DNA from: Candidatus Magasanikiibacteriota bacterium
Lineage (GTDB): Bacteria; Patescibacteriota; Patescibacteriia; Magasanikbacterales; JACTTX01
Reading direction: 5' to 3'
Assembly (NCBI GenBank): GCA_015661005.1
Contig: JACTTX010000010.1
Location: forward strand, 1-42,736
DNA: 42,736 bases
Below the pieces are notes generated by a model. It had not been told where the DNA came from. It ran no database searches and saw only the letters and a list, made by a program, of their open reading frames with translations. A program made the translations under genes and the position numbers. Each line of letters begins with the position of its first letter. Position 1 is the first letter of the stretch. Positions 13,075 through 36,369 of the stretch are shown piece after piece.

Positions 13075-13094
13075 CAATGGACAGAGAGCATAGT

Positions 13095-13156
13095 GAAGAG
13101 TGAACGGCAAATGACGTTCTTGTTCTAAGCAACACGGCATTTGCCGTTCACTCTTC
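13095..13156. repeat. Palindromic element A (conserved-loop family)
   Basis: Perfect 19-bp arms (13095-13113 and 13138-13156, containing GTGAACGGCAAATG) flank a 24-nt loop whose core is TTCTTGTTCTAAGCAACAC. The same loop occurs in element E inner (36266-36289) and, reversed, near 25401-25425 and 26250-26262. The element lies between the converging 3' ends of dinB and the A2M gene, where it could serve as a two-way terminator. Confidence 0.85.
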
Positions 13157-13163
13157 AACACGA

Positions 13164-16100
13164 TTATCGCGCATTCACCTTGAACACTTTTCCTTCATTG
13201 TGGCCGTTCGCTGACGGATTATAGAACTCGTAAGCGCGAGTCGGCGGCACACGGAACTCGCCGGGTGTTACGGCTTGCGCTAAAAATTCATATTCATAAA
13301 CGCCGGGCCGCAAATTTTCGGCAAACAAGAAGACGCGATCATCACGCAACTCCGTGTGCGACCAGACATTTTCCCACCACCAATCATATTCCCAATCAGC
13401 CAGACAATATGATTCCCCTGACCAATCCGGAAAACACTGTTGCGTTTTATCCGCCAACTGTTGGGGACTGGTCTTCAAAGTAAAATCAATAGGTTCTAAT
13501 CCGGCCGGCAGATGATCTTCAAAGGCCACAAAACGATGCGCTTTGGTGGAGACCAGCCGCATCCGTACCCGCACCGTTTCTCCTTGACGCGCTGAACTCA
13601 AAGGATGCAAACGCTTAGCGTCTTTCAAAGAATACACCTCTGACGTCACGCTAAAGCCATTTTCAAACGACGCAATTTTCTCAATTTCACGATAAACGCG
13701 CATCGTCACGTCATAGAAATAATGCGTATCAGAATCTTTCTTCACAGAAACTTCATGGTCAGCGCCTTTGGCGAGCAGGGTAGAAATTGGAAACTCCACT
13801 TGCCGCTCGCCTGAGAGATCGCCCTTCTCAAACGGTAAGGTCTCTGCCAAGGCCGAATCCAGATACACCTGCACCACGGACGCTTTCTCGGAAATTGGAT
13901 GCTTCGTCACATAATCCGCCAAGCCAATCAAAGTCATAGCCGTACTTTGCGTGCTCATCCAATAACCATTCAATCTTTGCGTCGTGAGCCAACGAATTAA
14001 CCGATCATTCATCTCATCTTTTGGCGTAATCCGCAAAAGAGCTTGCAAATAAATGCTCGTTGAACGGACGTCGCTGTTCATGAAGTAGTCGTTGTAGCCG
14101 GTATCTTCCGTGATGTACGCGGTGGAGGAATTCAGGAAAACAACTTTGGCGCTGATCTCCCCCAGCACGCTCTTAGCCCGTGCGTCACTCCCGTCAATTT
14201 TCTGAAGCGCCATTGCTAAATACGCTTTACCAAAAACCGCCAACTCATCGCGCGCCTCATAGACCGATTGCGCATAACCGCCCAAATTTCCGGCATCATA
14301 GTCCGCCACCATTGCTAAAACCTGCGCCCGCTCGTTCAGATAATATCGCGCTTGTTCTGAAAACGGCCGGGCCAGATATTCCCGCAAATAATTTTGCGCG
14401 CGATTCAACACTTCCCGGTCAACATCATATCCGGCCGCCTGCGCCCGCGACAATCCCCAAAAAACGTAAGCCGTCAGATGCGGATATGTTTGCGTACTCT
14501 CTGACCAGAAACCAAAACCGCCGTCACTCCTCTGCATCGGAATTAAACGCTTGATTGCTTCCCCCACTTTAGCGTGGGCCTTTTTGAGTAGAGCTTCGTC
14601 ACCGACCGCTAATTTTTTGGCAACCAACTCCTCATAGAGCAAGGCGGCAATGAGCGCGCTCGTTGTTTGTTCTGAACAACCGTATTCAAAATCCACCAAA
14701 TACTTAACGCTGTCACCAAGTCCACTTCCAACGTTGGTGGTAACGGCCACTTTCACTTCACCAGCGCCCGGAATAATCTGATCCGGGATCTGAATTTTTT
14801 CTGTGGCGGTACGACCAAAGATGTTTGAAGCCGTCGTAGCTTCCGGCACCGAGTACGGAAGAATGGGGATGGAGACCTCAAACCCGTCTTCCAATCCATT
14901 TCCTTTAACTTGAACGCGAAACTTTGCTTGCATTGACGTGATTGACGCCTTGACTACCCAATAAATCGGGCTACGCGATTTTGCGCCAAGCGTGACAGTT
15001 CGCAACGATTCCCCGGAAACGCCAACGCCTTCAGCAGTTATTTCTACACTGGCAGTCATCGCGCGATCAGTATTATTGAAAACTGTGGCGCCAACAACGG
15101 CCGTATCATCATGACGCATTAAACGCGGCAGGAGCGGCTCAACCATCAAATCACGGCGGGTAATAATTTTAGCTTCAGTGGCGCCGACAATGGTATCTTT
15201 TGTTGCCCCGATCGCCAAAATCTGCCAGCTCGTCAGATTGTCCGGCAGTTTGAAATTCACCGTGGCTCGGCCATCACCGTCCGTGATCACATCCGCTTTC
15301 CAAAAAGCCGTGTCCAAGAAATTACCGCGCACCGCCGGCGACTCCTCACCCTTACCGCCACCCATCCCGTCTCCCTGGGTTTCCACAAACACTTTTTTAA
15401 TGAGTTGCGTTAATGTGTTGGCGGTGGTTACGCCAATTGATCGAGTGAACCAAAACCGACCAAGTATATTTTTGTCAATTGCGCCCAAAAGCGCAACGAC
15501 CCGTTCATCAACAACGCCAATGGAGACCTCGGCCGACACCCCTGTCCCGTCACTCCGACGCGTCCGAACATCCAAGGTTACGTTATTGCCCGGCCGATAC
15601 ACCGCTTTATCCGGTGTAACTTTCAGATCCAAAACCTTTCCGGCGGTATTCACCATCAGATTGGCATACCCAACTCTTAACTCCGGCGCGCCATCACCGC
15701 CGCCTTTAACCGTCACCACGGAAACATAAATGTTCGGCACGGAGCTTCCCGTAATGGGAATTTGAATGGTGCGGTGGTTCGTGTCCAAATCAATTACCCG
15801 ATACTCCCGAATCGTTTCCCGTTCTATTGTGACCAAGGCCTTGGCTTTGGCAAACGGTGTTTGGACCAAAAGTTCCGCCGTCTCGCCAACTTGGTAATCA
15901 GCTTTGGTCTGGATGATTTTCATTGTCTGATCATCGGAAATGCGGATCGTTCCCTCTTCACCTTTATACACATACCGCGATACGGACGCGGCAATTCTCC
16001 GGCCGTGATCATCCGTGGTTTCTGCAACGGCCACAAATTCACCGCCTTCGTCCGGCGTGAAAGAAACATTTGCCTTGCCGTCAAGACCAATGATGAACGG

Positions 16101-19100
16101 TTTGCTTTCAAGAAGAGTATCGGTGTTCACCCAGTCATAAAACGTGTCGCCATTAACACCTTCTTTTTTGACGTTGGACCAAGTGCGTTTATAAAATTTC
16201 ACGGTTCCGGACAGGTTGGGGTGAATCGTGCCTTCAGGATTAACGGCCACGAGATCAAATGCCGCCTTCGGCCCACTCCAACCCTCTGAATAATCCGAGC
16301 GGATGCCAAGGTAGAAATCACCTTTATGCACATTCACCTCGGAATTAGCGGACACTTGACGCTTGTTCACATCCGTTACCGTTACGTTCACCTGATATGT
16401 GGCGCTCGTTTTATAATCCGTTAGACCGGACGGCAAATTCAAATTAAAGTTCCCGTTGCTGTCCAGCACGGCTGTCCCGGTTTTAATGTTCTCAAAATCA
16501 TTGTCGGAACGGCAATACCAATAACAATAGGAGTCCTCGCGCTCACTGTAACTGTACCATTCACCTTGAAGCGGTTGAAAATAAAGAGCGCGACGGGAAA
16601 CGGTGTACTCAACGCTGGCGCCGGAAAGCGGGGCGCCATAATAATATTCGCTATGCACGGGGATATTTATGGCCTTGCCGCTGGTTAATATGTCCGTTGG
16701 CGTCCCCACGGTTACTTTAAAATCCGGCCGCCGAAATTCGCGAACGTCAAAGTAGCCGCTCACCTGTTCACCTTCCAAAGAAACGTAAAAGGTATGAGTC
16801 CCCAATTGCATACTTGGATTCAGCTGGAACTCACCGTGGAACGTCCCGTACTCGGAAACCGGCGCTTTGATCGTACCAACATTATTTCCACTTTCATCAG
16901 TGAAAACAACATCCACTTCTTTGGCGTCAGGCAGTTGTAATTGCGCATCAATGTCCCGTCTGATCACGCCTTTAAAATAAACCAGTTGATCCGGCCGATA
17001 GATGCGGCGATCAGTATAAAGATAACCAATCTGGCGCCGCAAAAGATTTTTATAGGAATAATCCAAACTGAAATTCCACGGACTGATCCCGTCATCCCAG
17101 CCGGTAGTATTCACGCCAAAATGACCGTTGCCATCAGCCAGAACCGCCAGCGTCCTGTCATTATTTTTTTCCGGTGCGGCCAAAAGCGCGGCGCCATTTT
17201 GATCGGTTTGGCCCTTAATAATCCGTTCAAATTTTCGATCATTGCCGTAGGTCTGATAAGTAAACACTTCCAAAGGCAGATTTCCCACCGGCTCGCCGGT
17301 TTTCATGTCCGTTGCCCAAATTAAAAGTTTGCCGCCGTGATCAACTTTTGTTGTCAAAACCGTATCCGCCACAGCCAATAATCGCGATTCCGTATCCGAA
17401 CTCCCGCGACGGCTGTGAGTGTCAGGCATGGCGATGTTTAAACGATAAAAACCGCCCGGCGCCCGTTTACCGGCAATTTCATCAAGATCCAAATTTAAAA
17501 TCTTGTAACTATTGAGCTCCGCGGCCGTGTCATATTGTTTGACGCCGATCTGGTCGCATGAATTTTGATTGAGAAAAAAATCTTCACTGGGAACTTTACA
17601 AAGAGTAGCTGTCACCGGCTTGGTCATGTTCATGGTCCGCACTTGATAAACACGCGGCAAATGCGCGGCTAAAACTCCGGTCTGGCTATACCCCTGAAGC
17701 CAAGCGTCGGAATCATAAGGATCCGTGTCAAAAGTCAGGGTATAGGGCTCGGCCAGATGTTGTCCATAGGCGTCAGTCAAATCCTTGCTAACAGCAATTG
17801 TATATTGCGTTGACGCCTGCCAGCGACCGTAAATGAATAGACCACTCTCAAATGAGCCGAAGCTTACATTCAAGTTTTTCAATTCCGGGGTCACCGTCAC
17901 AAATTTCTTAAGATCTTCATCATCAATTCTATTATTAAAATATATCACTGCGCGATCACGCACCGCTTTGGTTTTACCGCTTACCGGCTGTGTAGCCACA
18001 ACACGCAATCCTAAATTTCCGGTAATCACCGCGTTACTCCATGCCGCTTGAAGCCCATTTGGCCCAACGCCACCGGTGAAACCCTGCGGCAGGATGAACT
18101 CATATTGTTTGCCTAATTCATATCCGTCCCGCTTCTTAATTTGCACAATTTTTTTCCCGCCTTCATTAACCTTCGCATTCGTAAAATCAAACTGCGAATT
18201 GGAAAGTTTTACCGGTTCACTGCCGACTACCGCTTGACCTTTCTCATCAATGGCGCGGGCATAGATGGTTATAGAATTGCGAACCGACAACGGATTCACC
18301 GGGTAATTAAAAAAAAGCAAGGCCGCATCTTTTTGACGAATTGGTTCGTCAGTTGCCATCCGCACGCTGACATTTGGAGTGTGAAAAGTTGTTATGTAAT
18401 CTTCACCCAACGCCGAACCGTCATTGAACTTGACGCCTTTGGCAAGGATCACTATGTATGTGGTGGCCGGCGCCCAGCCGGTTGTCGGGACAAACTCATA
18501 GCCGCTGGTGCCCAGCCAATTATAAGTTCCTTTCACCACCGGAGTAATCTTCAATTGCGGCGGCACGATCAGAGAATTGGTGAGCGTCCGCATGGGCCGA
18601 TCAAAAAGCACGGTCAAGATTTGCGCCGGTCGGACTTCCGCATTATTTGGCGGCGTGAAAACCGTAACTTCCGGATAATTTAAAACAGAAAATTTTTGGG
18701 TGAAAGCCGCTTTGAGACCCTTGCCAAACCAGGCGCGGGCGTCGCGTGTAACCGTCATTTCATAAACTGTTCCTTTTTCCAAATTGTAGGCCGGATCAAA
18801 AGTAACATTATTGCCTTCCCACTTATAACTTCCGGCAATAGACGGTATGAACTTAATGCTTCGTTCCACGCTGGCGCGATTCATCTTTTGGCTAAAATGA
18901 AACGTGAAGGATACGTCTTTTTTAATATCAATTTTTTCTCCGTTAAAATTTGTCTTGATCGTTGGTGATGGCGCCACCACAAAAGCAATCGCGCCCATGG
19001 CAATGACCACGCCAAAAGTAATTAAAATTTGTTTTAATTGCGTTCTAAAAAAATTACCGACTGACTTAAAAAAGACAATAACACGAGCGCTGAAACCGTT

Positions 19101-19124
19101 TAATAAATTTTTCGGATTCCACAT
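13164..19124 (-). CDS. Bacterial alpha-2-macroglobulin
   Basis: The 1986-residue protein has a short cytoplasmic N-terminus, a membrane segment (about 31-53, ILITFGVVIAMGAIAFVVA), Ig-like domains with FHFSQKMNRASVERSI and LFDRPMRTL, the macroglobulin MG repeats, a bait-like region (about 1240-1290 with GDGMGGGKGEESPAVRGN) and the thioester-containing complement-like domain. The thioester motif is GCSEQTT with Cys1483 and Gln1486, so the covalent trap should be functional. Bacterial A2Ms capture attacking proteases in the envelope and are typically encoded beside pbpC, as here; pbpC lies immediately upstream on the same strand (35-nt gap). A cell-surface defence role, for instance against host proteases, is inferred. 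The antisense open frames within it are shadows. Confidence 0.95.
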   Translation of the reverse strand: MWNPKNLLNGFSARVIVFFKSVGNFFRTQLKQILITFGVVIAMGAIAFVVAPSPTIKTNFNGEKIDIKKDVSFTFHFSQKMNRASVERSIKFIPSIAGSYKWEGNNVTFDPAYNLEKGTVYEMTVTRDARAWFGKGLKAAFTQKFSVLNYPEVTVFTPPNNAEVRPAQILTVLFDRPMRTLTNSLIVPPQLKITPVVKGTYNWLGTSGYEFVPTTGWAPATTYIVILAKGVKFNDGSALGEDYITTFHTPNVSVRMATDEPIRQKDAALLFFNYPVNPLSVRNSITIYARAIDEKGQAVVGSEPVKLSNSQFDFTNAKVNEGGKKIVQIKKRDGYELGKQYEFILPQGFTGGVGPNGLQAAWSNAVITGNLGLRVVATQPVSGKTKAVRDRAVIYFNNRIDDEDLKKFVTVTPELKNLNVSFGSFESGLFIYGRWQASTQYTIAVSKDLTDAYGQHLAEPYTLTFDTDPYDSDAWLQGYSQTGVLAAHLPRVYQVRTMNMTKPVTATLCKVPSEDFFLNQNSCDQIGVKQYDTAAELNSYKILNLDLDEIAGKRAPGGFYRLNIAMPDTHSRRGSSDTESRLLAVADTVLTTKVDHGGKLLIWATDMKTGEPVGNLPLEVFTYQTYGNDRKFERIIKGQTDQNGAALLAAPEKNNDRTLAVLADGNGHFGVNTTGWDDGISPWNFSLDYSYKNLLRRQIGYLYTDRRIYRPDQLVYFKGVIRRDIDAQLQLPDAKEVDVVFTDESGNNVGTIKAPVSEYGTFHGEFQLNPSMQLGTHTFYVSLEGEQVSGYFDVREFRRPDFKVTVGTPTDILTSGKAINIPVHSEYYYGAPLSGASVEYTVSRRALYFQPLQGEWYSYSEREDSYCYWYCRSDNDFENIKTGTAVLDSNGNFNLNLPSGLTDYKTSATYQVNVTVTDVNKRQVSANSEVNVHKGDFYLGIRSDYSEGWSGPKAAFDLVAVNPEGTIHPNLSGTVKFYKRTWSNVKKEGVNGDTFYDWVNTDTLLESKPFIIGLDGKANVSFTPDEGGEFVAVAETTDDHGRRIAASVSRYVYKGEEGTIRISDDQTMKIIQTKADYQVGETAELLVQTPFAKAKALVTIERETIREYRVIDLDTNHRTIQIPITGSSVPNIYVSVVTVKGGGDGAPELRVGYANLMVNTAGKVLDLKVTPDKAVYRPGNNVTLDVRTRRSDGTGVSAEVSIGVVDERVVALLGAIDKNILGRFWFTRSIGVTTANTLTQLIKKVFVETQGDGMGGGKGEESPAVRGNFLDTAFWKADVITDGDGRATVNFKLPDNLTSWQILAIGATKDTIVGATEAKIITRRDLMVEPLLPRLMRHDDTAVVGATVFNNTDRAMTASVEITAEGVGVSGESLRTVTLGAKSRSPIYWVVKASITSMQAKFRVQVKGNGLEDGFEVSIPILPYSVPEATTASNIFGRTATEKIQIPDQIIPGAGEVKVAVTTNVGSGLGDSVKYLVDFEYGCSEQTTSALIAALLYEELVAKKLAVGDEALLKKAHAKVGEAIKRLIPMQRSDGGFGFWSESTQTYPHLTAYVFWGLSRAQAAGYDVDREVLNRAQNYLREYLARPFSEQARYYLNERAQVLAMVADYDAGNLGGYAQSVYEARDELAVFGKAYLAMALQKIDGSDARAKSVLGEISAKVVFLNSSTAYITEDTGYNDYFMNSDVRSTSIYLQALLRITPKDEMNDRLIRWLTTQRLNGYWMSTQSTAMTLIGLADYVTKHPISEKASVVQVYLDSALAETLPFEKGDLSGERQVEFPISTLLAKGADHEVSVKKDSDTHYFYDVTMRVYREIEKIASFENGFSVTSEVYSLKDAKRLHPLSSARQGETVRVRMRLVSTKAHRFVAFEDHLPAGLEPIDFTLKTSPQQLADKTQQCFPDWSGESYCLADWEYDWWWENVWSHTELRDDRVFLFAENLRPGVYEYEFLAQAVTPGEFRVPPTRAYEFYNPSANGHNEGKVFKVNAR

Positions 19125-25359: not shown

Positions 25360-25501
25360 TCTGTGAATGTCGTGCGATAGCGCAGAGAGAAGCGCAAATG
25401 TCGTGTTGCTTAGAACAAGAACTCTGCGGCGACTGGCGAATGCAACGGAGCAAATATCGTGTTCTTCAATCAAGAACGATATTTGCCCCCTTCCATTCGC
25501 C
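25360..25501. repeat. Palindromic element B (two copies, one degenerate)
   Basis: The right copy has inner arms GCAAATATCGT (25450-25460) and ACGATATTTGC (25476-25486) around GTTCTTCAATCAAGA, and outer arms GGCGAATG (25435-25442) and CATTCGCC (25494-25501). To its left GCAAATGTCGTGTTGCTTAG (from 25393) is half of the element A type, with its reversed loop. It fills the gap between the PH-domain and FtsB-like genes. Confidence 0.75.
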
Positions 25502-25504
25502 AGT

Positions 25505-26193: not shown

Positions 26194-26345
26194 AGAATGA
26201 AGCGCAAATGTCGTTCTTGTCTTGTGCTGAATAGTTATCGGCAAATGTCGTGTTGCTTAGACCAAAAACGCCATAGTGACCGGTGAATGGAGGGGCGCAA
26301 ATATCGTTCTTGATTGGAGAACACGATATTTGCGCCCTTCCATTC
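26194..26345. repeat. Palindromic element C (degenerate nested copy plus hairpin)
   Basis: The right part is a clean hairpin: GGGCGCAAATATCGT (26293-26307), loop with TCTTGATTGGAGAAC, then ACGATATTTGCGCCC (26323-26337), with outer arms GAATGGA (26285-26291) and TCCATTC (26339-26345). The left part (26194-26280) reads CGCAAATGTCGTTCTTGTCT...AATAGTTATCGGCAAATG, colinear with the reverse of element E but decayed in its second half. Confidence 0.75.
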
Positions 26346-26374
26346 TTCGGTCTCCGGCTTCCGGTCTCCGGCTT

Positions 26375-27769
26375 TTAGCTTCTATCTTCCAGCTTCCGGT
26401 CTCCGATACATTCTCGCACGACCGCGCGATCATCCCACGGAATTAACTTTCCGCCGATGTCGGCGATGGCCTGCTCGGCGCCTTTGCCGGTGATCAAAAT
26501 CAGAGGTGGCGGCGCGGCGCCATCTGATTGTCCAAACTCGCTGGCCATCGCGATGGCTTTTTGAATGGCTTCGCGGCGGTCAAGTACGCGAAAAATCCCC
26601 TCACCTTCCATTTTACCACTTTGCGTGGCGCCGGCATACACATCATCAATGATTTTTTGCGGATCGTCGTCATACGGATCTTCGTTGGTGATAATCGTGA
26701 TATCCGCGTTTTGCGCGGAAATCATCCCCATCTTTGGACGGCGAGAAACATCCCGCCCGCCGCCGGCCGAGCCAACAACATGGATAATTTTCCCGTGCGG
26801 CATCTGTTTCACGATTTCCATTGTTTGCGCCAATGCCACCGGCTCAAACGCATAATCAACAATTACGGTGAAGGGTTGACCCTCATTGATAAACTCCATT
26901 CTGCCGGGCACGCCGGAAATTTTTTGCAAACCTTGACGCGATGTTTCAAGCGGCACGCCGAAAGCATAACAAATTGTTGCGGCCATGGCGGCGTTATAAA
27001 TGTTATAAGTTCCGAAAAGTTGAAGATTAAAATTGACGTCATTGATTTTAAAGTGCACGCCACTACCATCAGCGAGCGGTTCTTCGGCCTTAATGAAGGT
27101 GCAGGTGGATTCAGAAATCTGCGTCATCGCGCCTTCAATATGCAGACATAACGGGGACAGTTCTAAAGGGGACAGTTCTAAATTATGATGCGACTTAAAT
27201 GTGTCCCCTTTAGAACTGTCCCCAACGGTCATCAGAAAATCTGACGCGTGCTCATTGTCAGCGTTCACAACTTGAATTGCGCCGACGGCCTGGCTAAACA
27301 ATTTAATTTTTGCGGCTTTGTATTTTTCAAAACTGCCGTGGGCTTCAATATGTTCCGGATAAAGATTGGTCAAGGCGACGAGATCATATTTGATGCCGAT
27401 ATGGCGAAACTGTTCAATGCCTTGTGAAGTGGTTTCAATAATCGCGTGCGTACATCCGGCGTTCACCATCTGCCGCAAAAGTTTTTGCGTTTGAAAACGA
27501 CCGAGCATGGTCATCTTACGGTCGTTCAGCCATTCCTTGTCCGCGATTTTGAAAAGCATGGTTGAGGTAACGCCAACTTTGAAACCGGCGGCTTCAAGAA
27601 TTTTGGCCGTTAAAAAAACGGTGGTGGATTTTCCGCTGGTGCCGGTGATGCCAATAACCTTTAGTTGACGCGATGGATTCCCGTACCAAGTAGCCGCTAG
27701 TTTGGCGAGGGAAAAGTGATATAGCGCCAGAAGTGGTTTGGGGACTAGTTTGCGTAAAAAACGGTTCAT
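26375..27769 (-). CDS. murE: MurE-like Mur ligase with in-frame repeat insertion
   Basis: From the ATG at 27769 (MNRFLRKLVPKPLLALYHF) the enzyme is 464 residues. It has the ATP loop GITGTSGKSTT (about 38-48), the central domain (TTSQGIEQFRHIGIKYDLVA, TNLYPEHIEAHGSFEKY, VVNADNEHASDF) and the C-terminal domain (GVPGRMEFI, VDYAFEPVAL, TNEDPYDDDPQKI). It resembles UDP-MurNAc-tripeptide synthetases but lacks the usual N-terminal UDP-binding domain of about 90 residues, and has NEDPYDDDP where diaminopimelate enzymes have DNPR, so the amino acid it adds is uncertain. Residues about 183-206 are encoded by a REP-like palindrome (see 27153-27223). The C-terminal DRKLEDRS comes from simple repeats. Its promoter is leaderless-type. 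Confidence 0.88.
   Translation of the reverse strand: MNRFLRKLVPKPLLALYHFSLAKLAATWYGNPSRQLKVIGITGTSGKSTTVFLTAKILEAAGFKVGVTSTMLFKIADKEWLNDRKMTMLGRFQTQKLLRQMVNAGCTHAIIETTSQGIEQFRHIGIKYDLVALTNLYPEHIEAHGSFEKYKAAKIKLFSQAVGAIQVVNADNEHASDFLMTVGDSSKGDTFKSHHNLELSPLELSPLCLHIEGAMTQISESTCTFIKAEEPLADGSGVHFKINDVNFNLQLFGTYNIYNAAMAATICYAFGVPLETSRQGLQKISGVPGRMEFINEGQPFTVIVDYAFEPVALAQTMEIVKQMPHGKIIHVVGSAGGGRDVSRRPKMGMISAQNADITIITNEDPYDDDPQKIIDDVYAGATQSGKMEGEGIFRVLDRREAIQKAIAMASEFGQSDGAAPPPLILITGKGAEQAIADIGGKLIPWDDRAVVRECIGDRKLEDRS
27153..27223. repeat. REP-like palindrome inserted in murE
   Basis: Perfect 22-bp arms (27153-27174 and 27202-27223) built from two tandem units, GGGGACAGTTCTAAA and GGGGACAG, around a 27-nt centre. 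A second copy is at 33820-33888. In murE it is read in frame and encodes LELSPLELSPL and flanking residues without a stop. REP sequences of this sort are usually moved by RAYT transposases; none is in the window. Confidence 0.9.
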
Positions 27770-27866: not shown

Positions 27867-28160
27867 ATGAAACTTTGGTTGCAGGTTGGTGCGGACAAGT
27901 TTGAGGAAACTACGCTCCAGGTCGGCGATACGATCCTCGTCCGACTGCGCAATGGCTCGGTTAGCATGAATCGCGGCAGTAGCAAGTTGTGGTTCGGACG
28001 ACGCGAAAACAGGCAAGAGAAGTGGTGCGTAAAGGATAATGCGTCCGCAGTCACGTACGACTATGCGCTCAAGGTCGCCCTCTTCATCGCCGACCTCGCC
28101 CAGCTCATCTGCATGAAAGAACGCGTGGATGAAGAGCACGCACTCTTCATCCTCCGCTAA
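27867..28160 (+). CDS. Small orphan protein with strong RBS and own terminator
   Basis: The product is 97 residues, beginning MKLWLQVGADKFEETTLQVG and ending KERVDEEHALFILR. I recognise no family. It has a beta-rich first half (DTILVRLRNGSVSMN, SKLWFGRRENRQEKW), one central Cys (KWCVKDN) and a helical second half (YDYALKVALFIADLAQLIC) and no signal peptide. It stands alone in its orientation with promoter, AAGGAG Shine-Dalgarno at an ideal distance and a hairpin after the stop, which makes it a convincing gene. The strong Shine-Dalgarno is unlike its neighbours, most of which lack one, so a high translation rate or acquisition from elsewhere is possible. Confidence 0.8.
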   Translation: MKLWLQVGADKFEETTLQVGDTILVRLRNGSVSMNRGSSKLWFGRRENRQEKWCVKDNASAVTYDYALKVALFIADLAQLICMKERVDEEHALFILR

Positions 28161-33819: not shown

Positions 33820-33888
33820 GGGGACAGTTCTAAAGGGGACACTTCTAAATGCAAAGCGTTTAGAAGTGTCCCCTTTAGAACTGTCCCC
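33820..33888. repeat. REP-like palindrome between ftsW and mraY
   Basis: Perfect 30-bp arms (33820-33849 and 33859-33888), GGGGACAGTTCTAAAGGGGA then CACTTCTAAA, around a 9-nt loop. The first 22 bases equal the murE copy except that the second unit continues CACTT rather than CAGTT. It lies within an otherwise tight run (mraY, ftsW, murG), so the operon tolerated it. Confidence 0.9.
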
Positions 33889-36086: not shown

Positions 36087-36153
36087 TCAGAATAGTTTCC
36101 TGTGAATGTCGTGTTCTTCAATCAAGAACGCCATTCACAGGATACTATTCTGA
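36087..36153. repeat. Palindromic element D
   Basis: Arms of 22 bp (36087-36108 and 36132-36153, containing CCTGTGAATG/CATTCACAGG) with one mismatch, around a 23-nt loop with core GTGTTCTTCAATCAAGAAC. The loop is the same as in element B (25459-25477) although the arms are unrelated beyond AATG/CATT. Confidence 0.85.
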
Positions 36154-36213
36154 TCAGCTTATATTATTCATAAAACAGCTGACATGTTCGCTTGCGACAA
36201 ATAGCGAGTTTAA

Positions 36214-36347
36214 TCAAAGAGTGAGGCGCAAATGGCGTGTATTGTTCAATAGTTACCGGCAAATGGCGTTCTTGTTCTAAGCAACACGACATTTGCCGGT
36301 AACTATTGAACACAAGACAAGAACGCCATTTGCGCCTCACTCTTTGA
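36214..36347. repeat. Nested palindromic element E
   Basis: Outer perfect 25-bp arms (36214-36238 and 36323-36347, containing GGCGCAAATGGCGT) enclose an inner element with perfect 23-bp arms (36243-36265 and 36290-36312, containing AGTTACCGGCAAATG), whose 24-nt loop has the element A core TTCTTGTTCTAAGCAACAC. One family member thus sits inside the loop of another. With element D it occupies most of the 336-nt gap between rpmA and pyrG; no gene is seen there. Confidence 0.9.
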
Positions 36348-36369
36348 CTACATCCACCAACCACAAAAA

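Follow-up and report, generated by a model that had tools for sequence, protein, structure and literature searches.

In-frame copies of an inverted repeat in murE and eight other genes of a Patescibacteria genome, and their probable link to a REP-type transposase

Several families of dispersed bacterial repeats come close to the element examined here. Rickettsia palindromic elements (RPEs; Ogata et al. 2000/2002) are in-frame palindromes within genes, either about 150 bp long (RPE-1 type) or tagged with CGTC (RPE-4 and RPE-6), and the passages devoted to them in two papers know of no transposase (PMC10969869, PMC3733652). According to the relevant sections of Di Nocera et al. 2013 (PMC3733652), intragenic REPs of the GTAG and CGTC types are found in several genera inside ORFs, where they code for 20 to 30 residues; in two species the host gene is uvrA. 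The same sections describe TIRtrons (TIRYT), in which a RAYT-like gene lies between terminal inverted repeats (TIRs), with dispersed singlets, dimers and groups; their TIRtron section names no intragenic TIR copies, the intragenic elements there being GTAG and CGTC REPs, and no TIRtron from Patescibacteria. In Pseudomonas fluorescens SBW25, REPs are nearly all extragenic, with 14 of the 1,067 most abundant 16-mers overlapping genes (Bertels and Rainey 2011, PMC3116915). REP/RAYT work also includes that of Nunvar et al. 2010 (PMC2817692). We found no REP/RAYT or MITE work on Patescibacteria among the open-licence papers searched. The locus described here, in a Candidatus Magasanikiibacteriota genome, is best read as a tolerated in-frame insertion into MurE of a transposase-mobilised repeat with a frame-keeping 15-nt unit, a reading to which we give a probability of roughly 0.87.

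The locus lies in a window of 42,736 nucleotides, the whole stretch of DNA analysed, from a draft genome of 870 kb (44 contigs, 97.85% complete); the E-values and counts given below refer to this one draft genome. On the minus strand, positions 26375-27769 (also given as 26378-27769; ATG at 27769) encode a protein of 464 residues that scores 323.6 bits on the NCBIfam model TIGR01085 (cutoff 257). It has the Mur ligase middle and C-terminal domains, and its predicted model is matched best by MurE crystal structures (Foldseek, E 6e-34). This is the sole MurE of this small Patescibacteria genome, in which no other protein comes close. Model positions 1-68 of TIGR01085, corresponding to the N-terminal domain, are missing from the protein, as they are from its order relatives, and the aligned relatives begin at about the same place as the ATG start at 27769. 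A longer ORF with a GTG start at 28054 was rejected, the relatives giving it no support.

Within this ORF, positions 27153-27223 (no strand assigned; GGGGACAGTTCTAAAGGGGACAGTTCTAAATTATGATGCGACTTAAATGTGTCCCCTTTAGAACTGTCCCC, 71 nt) consist of four 15-nt units, two direct (27153-27167 and 27168-27182) and, after a 12-nt spacer, two inverted, of which the inner one is decayed (27195-27208) and the outer one is not (27209-27223). An element at these coordinates in an open reading frame had been noted in the preliminary description, and both points hold. The perfect palindrome reported there does not, since the 29-nt arms are 90% complementary and lie 13 nt apart, and only the 22-bp outer stem is perfect upon DNA folding (z about -9 to -11 versus shuffles). 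With up to three mismatches, the 15-nt unit has seven matches in the window (0.98 expected). One canonical copy of 69 nt (15+15+9+15+15, no strand assigned) occupies 33820-33888, with an FtsW/RodA-family gene on one side and a family 4 glycosyltransferase gene on the other. Its 34-nt arms are 97% complementary, nearer to a perfect palindrome than those of the murE copy. The two copies, 69 nt with better arms and 71 nt, are therefore related but not identical; what had been called the same element is a real, intergenic relative.

The insert-coding stretch comprises the 71-nt element and one further base (27152-27223, minus strand): its 72 nt form 24 codons, the first being GGG (27223) and the last CCG (27152), and specify residues 183-206 of MurE, the peptide GDSSKGDTFKSHHNLELSPLELSP. 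The addition of about 24 residues had been anticipated correctly. Alignment with relatives had been named in advance as a test, and in MAFFT alignments residues 183-206 correspond to a gap in about 38 MurE relatives, namely 28 from the same order plus 10 that come from named genomes, including Candidatus Buchananbacteria, Uhrbacteria, Kerfeldbacteria and Falkowbacteria. This absence is judged at the protein level, across a variable loop, from relatives that are about 50% identical and none of which belongs to the same genus or family. When the insert is set aside, the segment from FL to VHF spans 34 residues, and the segment from FL to ISF in the closest sequence (L034) also spans 34 by hand count. 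In the AlphaFold (AF2) model of MurE (mean pLDDT 81, pTM 0.83), residues 183-203 form the sole segment with a pLDDT below 50, and the peptide is therefore predicted to be a disordered loop at a variable site.

We propose that the element entered murE in a frame that remained open, and that MurE, normal in other respects, is now encoded with a surface loop of 24 residues, predicted to be disordered. The insert peptide is probably made in the cell, and we take it to be neutral, not beneficial. A predicted disordered peptide in a variable loop fits mere tolerance, and the function implied by the word "domesticated" is unsupported. Genuine domestication would mean that a useful peptide or an mRNA hairpin keeps the element in place, for example through translation regulation or protein contacts. 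The hairpin predicted in the murE mRNA is strong (-51.6 kcal/mol, z -8.1), so that an effect on translation is possible, and the outer stem is still perfect despite the decayed inner part. Intergenic copies have perfect outer ends too, however, and proteins unrelated to one another use different reading frames of the repeats, invariably within variable loops or linkers, which speaks against a role for the peptide. Because of this diversity of frames, proteins and loops, no selection for a useful peptide needs to be invoked, and we consider domestication improbable.

The same very stable hairpin might also be skipped by ribosomes, in which case the peptide would be absent from the product; such translational bypass is exemplified by T4 gene 60 and by the mitochondrial byp elements. 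Nevertheless, all nine intragenic inserts of the genome are free of stops and leave the frame intact, an outcome with a chance of about 5e-5 at one-third each, although this figure is overstated, since whole units measure 15 nt. Several of these inserts are moreover singlets of 15-30 nt, and by itself the 30-nt singlet does not fold (0 kcal/mol). Bypass is hence hardly credible, and we return to the tolerated insertion.

In-frame copies occur in eight more genes, encoding UvrA, UvrC, PheS, SecA, a ClpB-type chaperone, Elp3, NrdJ and a glycosyltransferase, none of which is disrupted. MurE and these eight proteins thus all carry the repeat in an intact ORF, as residues with no counterpart in homologues. 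By alignment, the extra residues are clearest in UvrC, UvrA, PheS, ClpB and Elp3, while the copies in SecA, NrdJ and the glycosyltransferase (the last a single unit) sit in variable linkers. With at least nine genes involved in this genome alone, and with precedents in print since 2000 (Rickettsia) and 2013 (GTAG/CGTC REPs), the case can no longer be called rare, as it first had been. Besides its repeat peptide, the B12-dependent ribonucleotide reductase NrdJ (ORF L074:350-4867) contains an intein-like block that matches intein-containing protein models.

The frames read in these proteins are GDSSKGDTSK, GTVLKGTLLN, LELSPLELSP and FRTVP. The 15-nt unit has no stops in four of its six frames, two per strand, whereas the third frame of each strand contains stops. 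Elements lying in the third frame supply the stop codon of neighboring genes, a TAA read as GQF* or GHF*, in clpB, ybeY, a folD-like gene, Sua5/YrdC and other ORFs. Copies in loops and linkers would accordingly be translatable and survive selection, because the unit is 15 nt long and stop-free in two frames per strand, and third-frame copies would end the gene. Of about 33 loci, nine fall inside genes, far below chance (the coding density of the window being near 0.91), a deficit to be expected were most intragenic insertions eliminated. No gene broken by the element was found: the 10 intergenic copies considered, on one strand, each lie between different intact genes, and therefore reveal no disrupted pair. 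Copies of families 2 and 3 in short putative ORFs (C17, C23 and C44) were left out of the intragenic count. So were those that overlap a gene start in C11 and C14 (TsaE), the element lying upstream of the likely start codon.

It may be asked whether the element is itself adapted to gene interiors, its tandem 15-nt unit, its total of 69 nt (23 codons) and its stop-free frames having been selected. We regard this as unlikely. If true, a coding-compatible mobile repeat would have more safe landing sites in a tiny, gene-dense genome, and the core proteome would be decorated by a "coding-compatible" repeat family linked to a transposase.

Across the genome, at least 54 + 65 matches to the word were found with up to one mismatch, versus 0 for the reversed control, and a looser pattern gives at least 128 unit matches. 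They belong to at least 36 loci, 34 in the stretches read around elements and two found later. The canonical doublet is the 69-nt arrangement described above, and 30-nt singlets, each a tandem of two 15-mers, are also present. The word is lineage specific: it was not found in 56 order relatives, nor was its tandem pair in any of 379 further genomes from the phylum. A 22-mer scan of GTDB, from which this genome itself may have been left out, gave no match. A T precedes GGGG at the outer flank in 37 of the 55 ends listed, and no target-site duplication is obvious at the outer flanks of these 55 ends. Since the assembly is a draft in 44 contigs, some of which (C25 and C42) end in these repeats, one could suspect that an assembly or binning artefact misplaced the repeat in murE. 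At nine separate sites, however, a single gene continues in frame from one flank of the copy to the other; a false join of unrelated contigs therefore cannot explain the pattern, and we give this suspicion next to no weight.

A search for a RAYT (Y1 transposase) gene, which the preliminary description had suggested, yielded two genes on contig C32 (L089), with Y1_Tnp matches above the cutoff. The first (C32:3803-4438, 212 residues) has the HUH motif PNHIHLL and the stretch YIELNPVRA, scores 83.5 bits on the REP_Tyr_transpos model NF047646 (cutoff 80), matches the solved TnpA-REP structure 4er8 (E 6e-4), and is flanked by 30-nt inverted ends at C32:3761-3790 and C32:4478-4507. The clpB-type gene has this unit at its 3' end and takes its stop from the terminal repeat C32:4478-4507 (...NFRGQF*). 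The second unit (C32:18290-19042, inverted ends at 18290-18319 and 19013-19042) has its own dispersed copies; its transposase is 60% identical to the first and scores 79.3 bits on NF047646, just under the cutoff of 80, and its ends are a variant 15-nt tandem, GGTGTCACTTCTAAA GGTGCCACTTCTAAA. A third variant, GGTGTCACTCTCAAA GGCGCCACTTCTAAA, also has dispersed copies in the genome, and no transposase was found there for it. In a relative (G044), the RAYT gene L206:1450-2184 has terminal inverted repeats of a 13-nt tandem unit, GATAAAAGGGTCA, of which no dispersed copies were found.

The pairing of enzyme and repeat is best supported by the fact that the word differs between the two transposases, each having a variant to itself. 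The flanking ends suggest that the first transposase moved the element. On this model, the element would be a non-autonomous REP- or MITE-like inverted repeat of the tyrosine (HUH, Y1) transposase family. Its mobile unit would be the 30-nt end, made of two 15-nt units, and two inverted ends around a 9-nt centre would give a 69-nt hairpin of 23 codons. The element probably derives from the intact C32 unit, in which two such ends surround the REP-associated tyrosine transposase gene. Short conserved words scattered genome-wide, in and out of genes, could also be DNA-uptake-type or other host signals that arose in place by mutation. Against this, the units add residues relative to homologues, form inverted pairs and flank a transposase on both sides, and the second transposase has its own word variant; we hold such an origin to be highly improbable. 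The dozens of copies, the repeat-flanked REP-type transposase and the residues without counterpart in relatives instead bear out the earlier proposal that a mobile-type repeat has become coding sequence in MurE.

The insertion pattern thus resembles that of RPEs, as described in the passages cited above: in a reduced genome, palindromes sit in the reading frames of many housekeeping genes unrelated to one another and add a peptide to otherwise normal proteins. It differs in the 15-nt tandem word and in the presence of a cognate transposase (PMC10969869, PMC3733652). The label "REP-like" applies with reservations: the 30-nt end, two 15-mers with no hairpin, lacks the GTAG or GTGG tag of classical REPs as well as the CGTC tag and singlet stem of CGTC REPs, RPE-4 and RPE-6. 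In the portions of PMC3733652 on GTAG/CGTC REPs, by contrast, each singlet has a tag and a hairpin, although REP ends there, too, give genes their stop codons. As in REPIN/RAYT systems, inverted doublets form long hairpins and the transposase lies between inverted repeats (PMC3116915, PMC2817692), but nine of about 33 loci lie inside genes here, against the nearly all extragenic SBW25 set. An HUH-Y1 transposase of RAYT type between inverted repeats, here TIRs unrelated to GTAG repeats, is what TIRtrons share, and the motif GGGGWSAS, given for some of them in the same paper, is matched by family 1 (GGGGACAG/GGGGACAC) and not by family 2 (GGTGTCAC). By TIR layout and motif, the family 1 transposase unit of C32 appears to fit the TIRtron type.

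The kind of element is therefore already known, and its link to a transposase is unusually clear here. In-frame palindromic insertions are now extended to a Patescibacteria genome, and the inserts are seen together with their probable agent of spread, a transposase between copies of the repeat; the Rickettsia elements have no known counterpart. One word read in four frames in nine core enzymes amounts to a set of natural loop-insertion experiments (MurE, UvrA, UvrC, SecA, PheS and ClpB among them), telling which loops tolerate 5 to 39 extra residues. For annotators, REP-encoded peptides may look like "domains" in core proteins.

Other features of the window deserve mention. At the contig end, 42571-42736 contains an exact 82-nt direct repeat, possibly an assembly edge effect. 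A second, unrelated palindromic family (GCAAATGTCGTGTTGCTTAGAACAAGAAC type) is clustered between genes at 13094-13161, 25384-25504, 26194-26356 and 36092-36359, and recurs in at least seven more of the genome stretches that were read. Finally, a very long ORF of 1986 residues occupies 13164-19124 on the minus strand.
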